Positions 28,798-34,346 of a DNA stretch of 64,000 nt are shown in pieces. Origin of the DNA: Flavobacterium sp. N1736 (GTDB lineage: Bacteria; Bacteroidota; Bacteroidia; Flavobacteriales; Flavobacteriaceae); NCBI RefSeq assembly GCF_025947065.1, contig NZ_CP109994.1:4092001-4156000 (forward strand), written 5' to 3'. The notes under the pieces were generated by a model, which did not search any database, was not told the origin of the DNA, and saw nothing but the letters and a program-made list of their open reading frames with translations. A program made the translations under genes and the position numbers. Numbering within the stretch: position 1 is the stretch's first letter; every line of letters starts with the position of its first letter.

Positions 28798-31700
28798 CTA
28801 TTTAAATTTTACAGTTAAACCAAATGCAATACTTCTGGTGCGGGGATAAATTCCTTTGTCACCACCAAAGTTGTCTGCAGGGTTACCACTTCCACTTATA
28901 TTTAATTCCGGATCCATACCTGTATAATTAGTAATCAGCCATAAATTATTTCCTGTAAGAGAAAGTCGAATCGAATCAATATATTTATCAGTAAAACGGA
29001 AGCTGTATCCCGCTGTAATATTATCTAATCGGATGAAAGAACCGTCTTCTAACCATAAATCAGAAGCGTATGTAGAAGTAACAATTCCTTTGTCGACAGC
29101 ACTTTCCAAAACATTAGATTTACCAACGTTTTCCAGCATGCTTAGCCTTTGATTAAGGGCATTGTAGATTTTATTTCCTCCGGAACCTCTCCACAACATA
29201 GAAACATCAAAATCTTTGTATTTGTAAGATGGATTAAAAGCAAATGTATACGTTGGTAAAGCTGAACCTGCATAATAACGATCAGGGCTGTCAGCACTTT
29301 GATTGATTTCGCCTCCGCTTCCATCACGATCTGCTACGGTTTCCGCCTTATTGCCGTCTACGCCTGTAGATTGCAGAATATAAAATGCTCCCACTGGTTT
29401 TCCTTTTACCAAATAAGAGTTTGCAGCTCCCCAGCCTACGTAAGCAGTAGTTAAAGCTTCGCCATTATAACTTCCGCTTAAATTTAGGACTTCGTTTTTC
29501 ATAAAGGAAACATTTCCCGCTAGTGTAAGTGTGCTGTTTTCAGTTCGGATTACATCATAAGCCAAAGAAATTTCTAAACCTTTATTTGAAATACTTCCCA
29601 CATTCGCTTTTAGAGAATTATAGTCGTTGCTAACCTGAGATAATGTATAATCAAATAATAAATCATCTGTTCTGGAATCGTAAACGTCTACAGTACCTCT
29701 TAATCGATTGTCGAAAAGTGCAAAGTCAAGACCAATATTGGTTTGCTTTTTGGTTTCCCACTTCAAATCAGGATTATCATTTTGTTTTGTACCGTAATTC
29801 GTGATTTGCTGTCCGCCAAAATAAGTCAATCCGCGTTCGCCTATTAAAGCAATAGAATTTTGAGGAAGAAGACCTTGCTGATTTCCTGTTACACCATACC
29901 CTACACGCAATTTCAGTTCATTAAATAAATTTTTGGTTCCCATAAAAGGCTCCTTGTTTATTTGCCATGCTACTGATGCAGATGGAAAATCTCCCCATTT
30001 GTTATTTGCTCCAAATACTGATGCTCCATCTCGTCTGAAACTTCCTGTAAATAAATAACGATTAAGCAAGGAGTAATTAACGCGGCCTAGAAAAGACACT
30101 AATGTTCTGTCATTTTTATAGGATGACATATCGCCGGGTGAAACTTTTGAAAGATCACCAAACTGAAGCGCATTGTAAGTTGTTTTATCACTGATAAAGC
30201 CTTTTACCTGTGCATAATTTCCCTGATACGTTTGATTTTGCCATTCGTACAATGCCAGTGCATTTATGTTATGAACACCAAATGTTCCTTTGTAGGTAAG
30301 ACTGGCATTCGTCAATCTTTCATTTTGTTTTTTGTTTCTAATGTTTGCGTATCCTTTTTGATCGATTGCATAAGCATTTGTTGATGCAGCAGGAAGATAA
30401 TAACCATACATTTCGTTGGTTTTTCTCCAGCTTCCAAACCAGCTGGCTGTTAATCCTTTTGCCAGATCAAGATCAGCTTTCAGGCTTCCAAATAAATTAT
30501 CTTCTTGTTTTTCATTCGTAACTGTTTGAGCAGCTGCATAAGGATTTAAATATTGAAACACATTAGGATCTGTAAAATAACTTCCATCAGGATTTAAAAC
30601 AGGATCTGTTGGTCTCATTAAATAAGCATTTGTAATCAAATTAGACATATAGGCCGCTGTTCCGATGTCTCCAATGGTATTATTTCCATTAATAATACCA
30701 TTCGTTAAATTAAAAGTCAGTTTTAATTTATCGTCAAGACCCATTTGAGTTGCCTGAATACGACCAATGTATTTTTTATTACTGGAGTTAATTACGACAC
30801 CATCTTGTAAAATGGCCGTTACAGAAGCTCTGTAGTTAAATTTATCAGTTCCTCCGCCAAATGCTAAAGTATGTGTTTGTGTTAATCCGGTTTGAGTTAA
30901 AAGACCATACCAGTTTGTATCTGAACCATGATTTGATGAAGCCGGCACGCCTAAAGACTGCGCTGTTTTCCACCATTGGTCAGCACCCAGCATATCTAGT
31001 TTTTTAGGGATAAAATCTAATGATGATGAACCAATATATTCTATAGTTGTTTTTCCTGCTTTATTCTTTTTTGTGGTTACAATGATTACACCTGGCGCTC
31101 CTCTTGAACCATAAACGGCTGTAGCCGAAGCATCTTTTAAAACATCAATAGTTTCTATCTCACTTGGCGGAACCTGGTTTAATAAATCCATGTTTCCCTG
31201 AATTCCATCAACCACCACCAAAGGATCATTTCCTCCAATTAAAGAAGAAATACCACGAATACGAACACTTGGTCCTGAACCCGGTTCACTGCCAATTTGC
31301 GTAATATTTACACCGGCAGCTTTTCCGGCAATCAATTGTAATGGATTTACAATTGATCCCTGATTCATGTCTTTTGCAGCTATTGAAGAAACTGCTCCCG
31401 TAACATCTTTTTTAGCTACAGCGCCGTAACCAACTACAACAATTTCCTGCAAATTTGTAGCATCAGGAAAAAGCTGAATATTGATATTAGCCTGGGTAGC
31501 CGTTACTTTTTTTTCTTTATATCCTATAAAAGTTACAACAATTACAGAAGCGCTGCTTTCAACAGTAATTTTATATTTTCCGTCAAAATCAGTTACCATT
31601 CCGTTTTTAGTTCCTTCCTCAATAACCGAAGCTCCCGGCAAAGGCAAACCATTTTCATCCGTAATAATTCCGGAAACAGTTTGTTTTTCATATTGAATAT

Positions 31701-32073
31701 TTTCGGTTCTTAATTCCGGTTTTTTTAAGATAATTTGAGTATCGCGAACTTTAAATTCTGTTGGAGTTCCTTTAAAAAGTTTGTCTAAAACAATATTTAT
31801 TGGCTGATCTTTTACAGAAATAGAAATTACGCGGTCAAGATCGATATCATTCAGTTTGTAAATAAACCTGAAATCTGTTTTTTGTTCAATGGTCTCAATA
31901 ACCTTTTCGATTGTTGAATTGTTTAATTCAAGGGTTACTTTTGTTTTTTGGGCATAAGTATTTCCTCTAATATTAAACATGGCGACCAAAATAAGTAATG
32001 TTGTTAGTTTCAATTTTAGGTCATTTTGGAACACTCGGTATAAAAACCCAGTATTCTTTGATTTTTTTTTCAT
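28798..32073 (-). CDS. susC: SusC-family TonB-dependent transporter with STN signalling domain
   Basis: The protein has 1091 residues. The N-terminal signal is followed by an STN domain (about 45-115: IEKVIETIEQKTDFRFIYKL, IVLDKLFKGT), a carboxypeptidase-D-like regulatory domain (VSGIITDENGLPLPGASV), the plug (EIVVVGYGAVAKKDVTGAVS, VRIRGISSL, DPLVVVDGI, YGSRGAPGVIIVTTKK) and the C-terminal barrel. The STN domain is found in transporters that signal across the envelope to a FecR anti-sigma factor, and the FecR and sigma genes lie immediately upstream. It should import maltodextrins and report their presence. The 5' end is overlapped by a predicted antisense transcript. Confidence 0.95.
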   Translation of the reverse strand: MKKKSKNTGFLYRVFQNDLKLKLTTLLILVAMFNIRGNTYAQKTKVTLELNNSTIEKVIETIEQKTDFRFIYKLNDIDLDRVISISVKDQPINIVLDKLFKGTPTEFKVRDTQIILKKPELRTENIQYEKQTVSGIITDENGLPLPGASVIEEGTKNGMVTDFDGKYKITVESSASVIVVTFIGYKEKKVTATQANINIQLFPDATNLQEIVVVGYGAVAKKDVTGAVSSIAAKDMNQGSIVNPLQLIAGKAAGVNITQIGSEPGSGPSVRIRGISSLIGGNDPLVVVDGIQGNMDLLNQVPPSEIETIDVLKDASATAVYGSRGAPGVIIVTTKKNKAGKTTIEYIGSSSLDFIPKKLDMLGADQWWKTAQSLGVPASSNHGSDTNWYGLLTQTGLTQTHTLAFGGGTDKFNYRASVTAILQDGVVINSSNKKYIGRIQATQMGLDDKLKLTFNLTNGIINGNNTIGDIGTAAYMSNLITNAYLMRPTDPVLNPDGSYFTDPNVFQYLNPYAAAQTVTNEKQEDNLFGSLKADLDLAKGLTASWFGSWRKTNEMYGYYLPAASTNAYAIDQKGYANIRNKKQNERLTNASLTYKGTFGVHNINALALYEWQNQTYQGNYAQVKGFISDKTTYNALQFGDLSKVSPGDMSSYKNDRTLVSFLGRVNYSLLNRYLFTGSFRRDGASVFGANNKWGDFPSASVAWQINKEPFMGTKNLFNELKLRVGYGVTGNQQGLLPQNSIALIGERGLTYFGGQQITNYGTKQNDNPDLKWETKKQTNIGLDFALFDNRLRGTVDVYDSRTDDLLFDYTLSQVSNDYNSLKANVGSISNKGLEISLAYDVIRTENSTLTLAGNVSFMKNEVLNLSGSYNGEALTTAYVGWGAANSYLVKGKPVGAFYILQSTGVDGNKAETVADRDGSGGEINQSADSPDRYYAGSALPTYTFAFNPSYKYKDFDVSMLWRGSGGNKIYNALNQRLSMLENVGKSNVLESAVDKGIVTSTYASDLWLEDGSFIRLDNITAGYSFRFTDKYIDSIRLSLTGNNLWLITNYTGMDPELNISGSGNPADNFGGDKGIYPRTRSIAFGLTVKFK
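31914..31943 (+). promoter_or_regulatory. Candidate antisense promoter within susC
   Basis: TTG at 31914-31916, a 19-base spacer and TACTTTTG at 31936-31943 match the Bacteroidota consensus TTG-N19-TAnnTTTG exactly. It points against susC, toward the plus-strand terminator at 32122-32158. Such matches occur by chance in AT-rich DNA, so the weight comes from the pairing with that terminator. Confidence 0.45.
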
Positions 32074-32158
32074 AATTTTGTTAATTGATTGTAGTTAATT
32101 CGTTATATTCAATCACTTAGTAAATCGGAAATTGTTCGCAGCTCTTTCCGATTTTTTT
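31950..32158 (+). ncRNA. Candidate cis-antisense RNA over the susC start
   Basis: This is a predicted RNA of about 200 bases, from a start some 7 bases after the TACTTTTG box to the T run of the hairpin at 32122-32154. It would be complementary to the first 41 codons of susC, its start codon and about 85 bases of leader. No protein-coding frame explains a plus-strand terminator here. In Bacteroides, many glycan loci run by sigma/anti-sigma pairs carry such cis-encoded RNAs (DonS type) that repress the susC gene. This arrangement fits, but the RNA is inferred. Confidence 0.4.
32122..32158 (+). terminator. Plus-strand terminator upstream of susC
   Basis: A perfect 10-bp stem (AAATCGGAAA at 32122-32131 and its complement at 32145-32154) is followed by a T run on the plus strand only. 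On the minus strand the hairpin has no T tract, so it does not look like a terminator for fecR, which is transcribed that way. No plus-strand gene precedes it apart from the proposed antisense RNA. Confidence 0.65.
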
Positions 32159-32203
32159 ATTCCTGTAATTTTAATGTTTCATAAATTGTCATGTTTTTAG
32201 TGG

Positions 32204-33382
32204 TTATTTAATTAGTATTTGATTGTTTTTTATCGTGTAATTAATGCCATGAATGTCATTAAAATAACTCATTACATTTTCTATAGATTCTTCTTTAAAA
32301 CTTGCATTGAATTTTTCGTTCGCCAGTTTTTCATTTTTATTGATGATTGTAACATTATAACGTCTTTCGAGTTTTGTAATAATATTTTTAAAAGTCATAT
32401 TTCTAAAAGTCAGACCACCGTTTATCCATGAAGTATAAATATCTGTAATAACAGGTTTGGTGATAATTGTGGCATTTTCTTTATTGAAACTTCCTTTGTA
32501 ACCCGGTTTTAAAATCGTGTTTTTGTCAGCATTAAATTCTTCGCTGGTATTATACATTCCTACAGAACCTTCAACCAAAACAACATCTGTTGTAGCATCT
32601 TCAGGATAATTAGAAACATTAAAATGAGTTCCTAAAACGCGTACATTCAAATTATCAGAATTGACAATAAAAGGGTGTTTTTTGTCTTTGGCAACATCAA
32701 AAAAAGCTTCACCATCAAGAAAAACCTGTCTGTTTTCGCCCGCAATAAATTTTATCGGATATTTTAGAGTTGTTCCTGAATTCAGGTGAACAAGAGTTCC
32801 GTCTGATAATTGCAATTGGAATTTTTTACCGTACGGAATTTTGATGGTGTTGTAGGATACTTTCTCTAAATTGGAATTGTTTTCATAAACCAATTTGTTT
32901 CCGTTCTGATTTCCAACAACATTTCCTTTCGAATCTAAAACCTGAACCGAATTGTCTTCATGAATTATCTGAACTTTTCCATCTTCTAACTGCAAAACAA
33001 TATCAGTACTTTTAAAATCGAATTTTGGCTGAACTATTTCATTTTGGACATTTTGTTTGTAGAAAAATCCAATTCCCAATAAAACAACAACCGAAGCAGC
33101 AATTGCAATGTATTTTCTGAAATTTGATTTTTTAGCAGAAATAGGGATAACGGTTTCATTTTCTTTTGTTGAAGTCAAAATGTTCATAAAAATGTCATCT
33201 GCAGTTTGCGGATTCATCTTAGGCATTTCGCCCAAAAGATTTTGAATATCTTCGACAGAAGGAAAATCATCTGTGAGTTTATTTTTTTTGTAATAGGCAA
33301 TTACCTCGTTCGTTTCTTCGGGCGTACATTGGTTCAAAACAAACTTTTGTAATAGATTTTTTATTTCAGAATTTGAATTCAT
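32204..33382 (-). CDS. FecR-family anti-sigma factor
   Basis: The protein has 392 residues. An N-terminal cytoplasmic part (about 1-85, LLQKFVLNQCTPEETNEVIAY) is followed by one transmembrane segment (IAIAASVVVLLGIGFFY), the periplasmic FecR domain (IPYGKKFQLQLSDGTLVHLNSG, VFLDGEAFFDVAKDKKHPF, VLGTHFNVSNY) and a C-terminal domain that should contact the STN domain of SusC. It holds the ECF sigma factor inactive until SusC binds its substrate. It lies 130 bases upstream of susC on the same strand. Unusually, it is separated from the sigma gene by 400 bases containing a terminator and a repeat. Confidence 0.93.
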   Translation of the reverse strand: MNSNSEIKNLLQKFVLNQCTPEETNEVIAYYKKNKLTDDFPSVEDIQNLLGEMPKMNPQTADDIFMNILTSTKENETVIPISAKKSNFRKYIAIAASVVVLLGIGFFYKQNVQNEIVQPKFDFKSTDIVLQLEDGKVQIIHEDNSVQVLDSKGNVVGNQNGNKLVYENNSNLEKVSYNTIKIPYGKKFQLQLSDGTLVHLNSGTTLKYPIKFIAGENRQVFLDGEAFFDVAKDKKHPFIVNSDNLNVRVLGTHFNVSNYPEDATTDVVLVEGSVGMYNTSEEFNADKNTILKPGYKGSFNKENATIITKPVITDIYTSWINGGLTFRNMTFKNIITKLERRYNVTIINKNEKLANEKFNASFKEESIENVMSYFNDIHGINYTIKNNQILIK

Positions 33383-33782: not shown

Positions 33783-34346
33783 TTAGATAATTTCGTCATG
33801 AACTTGAAAAAAGACCCGCATCGATTCTAATGCTTTGCTCATTTGGTTCCTGACTGTATTTATAGAGATGCCGAGTTCCTGACTTATTTCTTCGTAACTC
33901 ATGCCTTTCTTTCGTGACATTTTAAAAATTTGCTTTCGCTTGGGCGGTAATTGCTTCATGGCTTCTTTTCGAAGTTTTTTGCAATCGGCTTCGCGAATAG
34001 CATAATCTCCATATTCATGTGATTTCTGACTTCCATAAAAAATTTCTTCTTTTAGCAGCGCTTCATTTGCTGCTTTATTTAAGAAGTTAAAAGCCTGATT
34101 TCGTGCAATTGTAAAAATATAGGCTTTAAAAGATTGTTCCAGATTTAAGTTCTCGCGGTTTTGCCAGACTTTCATAAACACATCCTGAACGTTTTCTTCG
34201 GCAGCTTCTTTTGATCTTAAAATACTAATACTGTACCCATAGATATCCTGATAGTATAAATCAAAAAGAGTACGAAAAGCTTTTTCGTTGCCATTTTTGA
34301 GTTCACTCACCAATAATTTTTCGCTATGGTTATTTGCTTCTAACAT
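33783..34346 (-). CDS. ECF-type RNA polymerase sigma factor
   Basis: The protein has 187 residues. Region 2 is seen in AFRTLFDLYYQDIYGYSISI, AEENVQDVFMKVWQNR and FKAYIFTIARNQAFNFL. Region 4 has LPPKRKQIFKMSRKKGMSYEEISQELGIS, with the helix-turn-helix ending NTVRNQMSKALESM. This is the Bacteroidota sigma subgroup normally paired with FecR and SusC. It should direct transcription of the glucan locus when released by FecR. TATATTTG (minus, 34433-34426), with TTG 15 bases further upstream, is a possible promoter whose -33 element overlaps one arm of an inverted repeat. Confidence 0.94.
   Translation of the reverse strand: MLEANNHSEKLLVSELKNGNEKAFRTLFDLYYQDIYGYSISILRSKEAAEENVQDVFMKVWQNRENLNLEQSFKAYIFTIARNQAFNFLNKAANEALLKEEIFYGSQKSHEYGDYAIREADCKKLRKEAMKQLPPKRKQIFKMSRKKGMSYEEISQELGISINTVRNQMSKALESMRVFFQVHDEII

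Follow-up and report, generated by a model that had tools for sequence, protein, structure and literature searches.

DonS-type antisense RNAs are often present at PULs under the control of an ECF sigma/anti-sigma pair, a description which the locus analysed here fits. As far as the available part of the source tells, DonS is a member of a family of cis-antisense RNAs of 78–128 nt which lie opposite to susC homologs and lower their expression (PMC7366714); for Bacteroides thetaiotaomicron, the accessible portion of a further study reports 32 PUL-associated antisense RNAs, several of them anticorrelated with their PUL (PMC10994844). Repression of susC translation in trans is ascribed to the FopS sRNAs in the sections available of another report (PMC11697453). 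In Flavobacterium psychrophilum, which belongs to the same genus as the present organism, 287 transcribed regions antisense to 281 genes are on record; the accessible text of that publication cites B. fragilis work for PULs and describes no antisense transcription at FecR–SusC junctions (PMC9723704). A search of the open literature turned up no paper on antisense RNA at the FecR–SusC junctions of Flavobacteriaceae.

We consider it likely that the present locus encodes an antisense RNA resembling DonS, about 74 nt in length (32085–32158, plus strand), which extends over the susC leader and probably represses susC. Like the members of the DonS family in B. fragilis and B. thetaiotaomicron, as these are portrayed in the excerpts at hand, the predicted RNA is short, antisense to a susC homolog and placed over its 5′ region; its predicted 74 nt, counted from an inferred 5′ end, fall slightly short of the length range of that family given above, a point weighed against the antisense RNA. 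The conserved antisense terminator and the candidate promoter box lie in the fecR–susC gap, opposite the susC 5′ region where DonS-type RNAs are encoded, a correspondence of position only. The hosts of DonS represent another bacterial family, and the likeness is one of description between DonS and an RNA predicted from sequence. The available DonS descriptions give no −7 box on the start codon, no shared terminator loop and no strand-biased wobble pairs, and these three features were likewise not found described in the accessible texts of the open literature searched. FopS and GibS, together with RbpB in B. thetaiotaomicron, are also short, carry a terminator hairpin and act at the 5′ ends of susC mRNAs according to the available part of the source (PMC11697453), but they do so in trans via a 5′ seed, whereas the window RNA would be encoded in cis opposite its target.

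The window, the whole stretch of 64,000 nucleotides that was analysed, corresponds to positions 4092001–4156000 of a 5.1 Mb single-contig genome. Its minus strand carries a run of genes for an ECF sigma factor, FecR, a SusC homolog with an STN domain, SusD, a SusE-like protein, GH13 and GH97 members and a second GH13-type protein. The ECF sigma gene (33783–34346; Sigma70_r2 and Sigma70_r4_2 domains) and fecR (32204–33382; FecR and FecR_C domains) are situated, as judged by these domain matches, directly upstream of susC, the presumed target (28798–32073; STN, CarbopepD_reg_2, Plug and TonB-dependent beta-barrel), and the gap between fecR and susC amounts to 130 nt (32074–32203). A search of named genomes yielded 79 related loci, 68 of which have the STN form and make up, together with the window, a set of 69 orthologs; Flavobacterium johnsoniae is represented by an ortholog, L046. 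The leader alignment contains 68 rows with 34 distinct leaders of 92 nt, because one locus (L097) offers only 39 nt upstream.

The gap accommodates a perfect inverted repeat, whose arms at 32122–32131 and 32145–32154 form a hairpin of 10 bp with a 13-nt loop (TTGTTCGCAGCTC) and which ends on the plus strand in seven T at 32152–32158. This element (32122–32158, plus strand) is predicted from its fold, its repeat, its orthologs and its counterparts at other junctions to be the terminator of the antisense RNA. The sequence-only reading had recognized the hairpin and its T run and had correctly noted that no plus-strand gene is present (ORFs of at least 100 aa are absent from this strand at the site); the position is specified here as the fecR–susC gap, outside susC. 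It had further held that the hairpin functions on the plus strand only, which is true of the T run and not of the bare fold, for which −11.4 kcal/mol (z −3.25) was calculated on the plus and −10.1 kcal/mol (z −3.43) on the minus strand. As both strands fold, the direction must be read from the T run and from the relatives. A scan with E. coli-type promoters and loops of up to 8 nt is blind to a hairpin with a 13-nt loop and was left unused. An Rfam search of five loci of the own genome with E values up to 5 produced three weak hits, all away from the junction hairpins, so that a match to a known RNA family was discarded; an ECF promoter inside the hairpin was likewise dismissed upon inspection by eye, its spacing being inconsistent between loci.

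Across the 68 aligned orthologs hairpin and T run are near-invariant, the loop included. On the sense strand there is little or no variation in the A run, the nine pairs of the inner stem and almost the entire loop, and much of the susC leader down to the ATG is conserved likewise; the 40 nt upstream are for the most part variable. Of the 68 rows, 49 no longer form the outermost stem pair (32154/32122), and the inner stem displays just two departures, A·C and C·A on the sense strand, which are equivalent to wobble pairs on the antisense strand. The near-invariance of hairpin, loop, T run and the start-codon box described below, while the upstream sequence varies, was counted for the antisense RNA. 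A loop conserved to the same extent as its stem is unneeded by a terminator and would rather suit a folded element in the leader of the susC mRNA, serving stability, translation or protein binding, with the start-codon sequence as a translation start context and with no antisense RNA involved. We regard this alternative as unlikely; the A run ahead of the hairpin has no obvious role in the sense strand, yet reads as a T run in the antisense strand.

The survey of related junctions started from 80 that were listed on the basis of FecR_C matches in 41 Flavobacteriaceae genomes; six more from the own genome gave 86 parsed junctions. After omission of rows with no open downstream frame, with a frame shorter than 190 codons or with too short a gap, 85 rows were counted for the box, 83 in an earlier terminator run and 82 with the terminator finder. 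With this simple finder antisense terminators were detected at 48 of the 82 Flavobacteriaceae junctions listed (shuffles 10.6) and sense terminators at 7 (shuffles 0.8), figures which refer to high-scoring FecR_C matches, several per genome, that are related by descent and not independent. The earlier run gave 46/83 and 7/83, respectively. In the 110 nt upstream of fecR, taken as control, antisense terminators were found in 3 of 86 cases versus 1.9 in shuffles and sense terminators in 1 versus 2.2. Outside the Flavobacteriaceae, in samples drawn likewise from high-scoring FecR_C matches, 29 of 40 junctions listed were counted in a phylum sample, from which three Flavobacteriaceae junctions were left out by design, and 21 of 40 listed in a class sample. 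Antisense terminators amounted to 12 in the former (shuffles 4.8; sense 2, shuffles 0.9) and to 11 in the latter (shuffles 2.3; sense 5, shuffles 0.8), 10 of these 11 stemming from a single family, f53, whose genomes show the same junction layout. A terminator is accompanied by a box, either exact or deviating by one mismatch, at 7 junctions of the phylum sample and at 9 of the class sample. The antisense terminators within and outside the Flavobacteriaceae were counted for the antisense RNA. Counted against it were the sense terminators, which also exceed their shuffles in the Flavobacteriaceae and class sets, and the 34 of 82 Flavobacteriaceae junctions at which the finder detected no terminator.

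The sequences of the stems vary between loci and pairing, loop motif and T run persist. In the own genome, where junctions L112–L116 were assessed, L114 (906443–906646) and L112 (1300356–1300565) exhibit the same layout of A run and hairpin with a different stem and a similar loop on the sense strand (GCTGAGAACA in L114 and GCTGTAACA in L112, compared with GCTGCGAACA at the window locus); the terminator layout is absent from L113, L115 and L116, which was counted against the antisense RNA. Wobble pairs in 68 junction hairpins, read in antisense orientation, show a G·U to A·C ratio of 116:4, compared with 143:55 in ten shuffles of the set; pairs had been scored irrespective of the strand, and the bias was not a selection criterion. 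For hairpins with at least 3 GC pairs the ratio is 50:2 versus 30:6 in shuffles. We read the bias as a sign that it is the antisense strand which folds, with composition accounting for part of it, and it thus speaks against an element of the mRNA leader. A perfect inverted repeat near the expected sense promoter might also be bound as DNA, either by a regulator or by the ECF sigma factor itself. This explanation is most improbable, since the stems change from one locus to the next without loss of pairing, loop motif and T run, and since a strand bias of wobble pairs is meaningless for duplex DNA.

Thirty-six hairpins of a common type, termed class A, were aligned, and 93.8% of the cells are paired, with 72 cells changed on both sides (shuffles 12.4); as the set had been picked as hairpins, these values are less a proof of pairing than an illustration of how diverse the stems are that surround a common loop. 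The consensus fold yields −17.9 kcal/mol in antisense versus −10.0 kcal/mol in sense orientation, which again argues against a leader element of the susC mRNA. A covariance model (R1) detected 51 hits in 41 genomes, among them 44 within 500 nt downstream of FecR_C, of which 43 are on the opposite strand. These 44 comprise 34 training sequences, 9 new ones, one of which (L204) is nearly identical to a training sequence, and 1 that lies opposite a trained one. Four of the seven hits away from FecR_C were inspected; two are positioned at SusC starts and two resemble ordinary terminators. The model produced zero hits in the own genome, where the loop is longer, a result counted against the antisense RNA. 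Hairpins similar to class A also precede SusC-like genes without an adjacent FecR_C match at L278 and L281. A further type of junction terminator in antisense orientation, class B, is built from GGGATAAAG and CTTTATCCC with a long loop, often ACTTTGGACGGT, and is preceded by a hairpin formed by TTAGTTAG and TTAATTAA; it is found at L151–L153, L159–L161, L167, L169, L171, L173 and others. The class B pattern is present at 18 of 83 boxed junctions, aligns poorly and gives three consensus pairs with −0.37 kcal/mol.

The promoter originally proposed for the antisense RNA is a TTG-N19-TACTTTTG box inside susC, and it does exist on the plus strand at 31914–31943, with TTG at 31914–31916 and TACTTTTG at 31936–31943. 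Its role as a promoter finds no support. The general pattern TTG-N17-21-TAnnTTTG occurs at 14 sites on both strands of the window, compared with a mean of 13.3 (range 8–22) in 30 shuffles, and corresponds at this place to the complement of Thr-Lys-Val codons in the STN domain of susC. The full box is kept in 27 and lost in 42 of the 69 orthologs, its −7 part being kept in 36, and its survival tracks the free choice between the Val codons GTA and GTT. Synonymous codon identity among the orthologs, 0.592 for the whole gene, reaches 0.679 in codons 43–46 below the −7 part, a value attained by 113 of 799 windows and hence unremarkable, and 0.785 in codons 51–54 under the TTG (14 of 799 windows as high); the constraint near the gene start has already fallen off there. 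An antisense RNA of about 215 nt starting from this box is, although the window and the 27 orthologs offer the full consensus at the right distance, very improbable considering its chance frequency and its frequent loss, and the box was ruled out as the start of the RNA. Of the conservation in relatives that the sequence-only reading had called for, the hairpin shows it and the promoter box does not. Its prediction of a cis-antisense RNA at the susC 5′ end is upheld by the comparative evidence at the hairpin end and fails at the promoter within susC, so that the idea appears right in kind and probably right at the window locus.

A better promoter candidate is provided by the sequence TAATTTTG at 32073–32080 on the plus strand, which overlaps the first base of the susC ATG and is singled out by orthologs and junctions. 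In F. psychrophilum, according to the accessible text, the −7 box recognized by sigma-A is TAnnTTTG and occupies −12 to −5 (PMC9723704), which would place the antisense start near 32085. The conserved block from box to T run in the 68 orthologs delimits the predicted RNA, and a start at the start-codon box would generate a transcript of about 74 nt over the leader and not of about 200 nt over the coding start as initially assumed; start site and length first proposed are probably wrong. The first predicted hairpin of the antisense RNA (32081–32120, plus strand; core 32086–32091 with 32110–32115), based on the fold and an inverted repeat (I1), begins 4 nt upstream of the predicted 5′ end. In the sense strand the complementary CAAANNT-ATG is present in all 69 orthologs. 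Among the junctions listed, 44 of 85 have the exact sequence, 26 have it with one mismatch and 15 are without, compared with 6 and 53 of 437 control gene starts for exact and one-mismatch sequences, respectively; the junctions were searched at any in-frame ATG within the first 26–30 codons (6 of the 44 exact boxes are not at the first start codon) and the controls at the first ATG only. The 26 junctions with one mismatch only and the 15 lacking the box were counted against the antisense RNA. With ATGs within 90 nt searched, 20 SusC-like genes of the own genome without an adjacent FecR_C match contain no exact box and three with one mismatch, and the box is missing in all 11 relatives whose match is without the STN part, which were chosen by the absence of STN and not by their fecR neighbourhood.

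The start-codon box is not accompanied by a −33 element: no TTG is found at N17-23 from it in the window, and among the junctions this spacing is not enriched (12/70; neighbouring bins 18, 6 and 8). CAAANNT-ATG could therefore serve translation instead, which fits a functional mRNA leader. This possibility is also favoured by the fold of the sense leader, for which 32081–32160 gives −13.5 kcal/mol (z −3.13) on the minus strand beside −16.1 kcal/mol (z −3.25) on the plus strand, and the fact that both strands fold about equally in the window was counted against the antisense RNA.

A second hairpin just within susC (32029–32056, minus strand), spanning codons 6–15, belongs to the sense strand, where it folds with −13.4 kcal/mol (z −3.51) compared with −7.3 kcal/mol (z −0.92) on the plus strand, and it likewise lends weight to structured mRNA. 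In the same stretch 59 of 85 junction genes contain a hairpin of at least 6 Watson-Crick pairs, in comparison with 38.4 in shuffles and 38 in a control stretch, a count in which the finder missed the window's own hairpin because of a mismatch. The hairpins just inside the junction genes differ in sequence, and their G·U to A·C ratio on the sense strand is 41:14 (shuffles 212:248). Synonymous identity is 0.895 in codons 2–6, 0.859 in codons 6–16 and 0.818 in codons 17–37, values unmatched by windows elsewhere. Unusual synonymous conservation among the orthologs is seen in codons 17–42 (about 31948–32025, minus strand), well beyond this hairpin.

Enrichment of junction motifs also suggests a tentative ECF promoter of susC on the minus strand (32179–32205), composed of AACC at 32202–32205, N16 and TTTATGA at 32179–32185. 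In the interval from the fecR stop to the hairpin, GCCTATG occurs in sense direction at 21 of 134 junctions, in antisense direction at 0 and in the control at 2. The motif common to the junctions is AACC ... (G)CCTATGA with a loose spacing of AACC. AACC and the GCCTATG-type motif may, as a weak indication, represent the ECF promoter of susC; in that case the sense start and the susC ATG would leave room between them for the antisense unit. A position of the terminator between susC and this promoter would also be expected of an insulator that halts stray antisense transcription ahead of ECF promoter and fecR, the RNA itself being non-regulatory, and antisense start sites in B. thetaiotaomicron mostly gave short weak transcripts according to the available part of the source (PMC7366714). 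For insulation alone, conservation of the loop and of a box on the start codon would be unnecessary, and we judge this reading quite improbable.

For the antisense RNA we propose the following scenario: RNA polymerase with the housekeeping sigma factor would start at the −7 box over the susC start codon, transcribe the susC 5′ leader in reverse direction and presumably stop at the intrinsic terminator before reaching fecR. The resulting RNA would be complementary to most of the susC leader and would most likely hold susC and the genes behind it at a low level as long as strong sense transcription by the ECF sigma factor, itself under FecR control, has not set in. Repression, deduced by analogy with DonS in Bacteroides, might proceed either by pairing with the leader, which hides the translation region or invites cleavage by RNase, or by collision of polymerases, or by both.

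The susC-antisense RNAs known from Bacteroides were found there by RNA sequencing. If the present assignment is true, the unit is recognizable from sequence, occurs in the majority of FecR-linked SusC junctions in the Flavobacteriaceae sample and reaches other families, with a fixed geometry consisting of a box on the ATG and a shared loop. It is conceivable, albeit a long shot, that the FecR-linked SusC loci of the Bacteroidia share an old antisense unit with start-codon box, leader-length RNA and near-palindromic loop of the TGTTGCAGCA type, and that the loops or a common RNA-binding protein link the loci into a network for ranking glycans. In such a cross-locus network sense expression and antisense initiation would compete directly at the start codon. 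At the level of the single locus, the antisense RNA, if real, would put an RNA-based lock on top of the sigma/anti-sigma regulation by which soil, freshwater and gut bacteria govern their glycan uptake.
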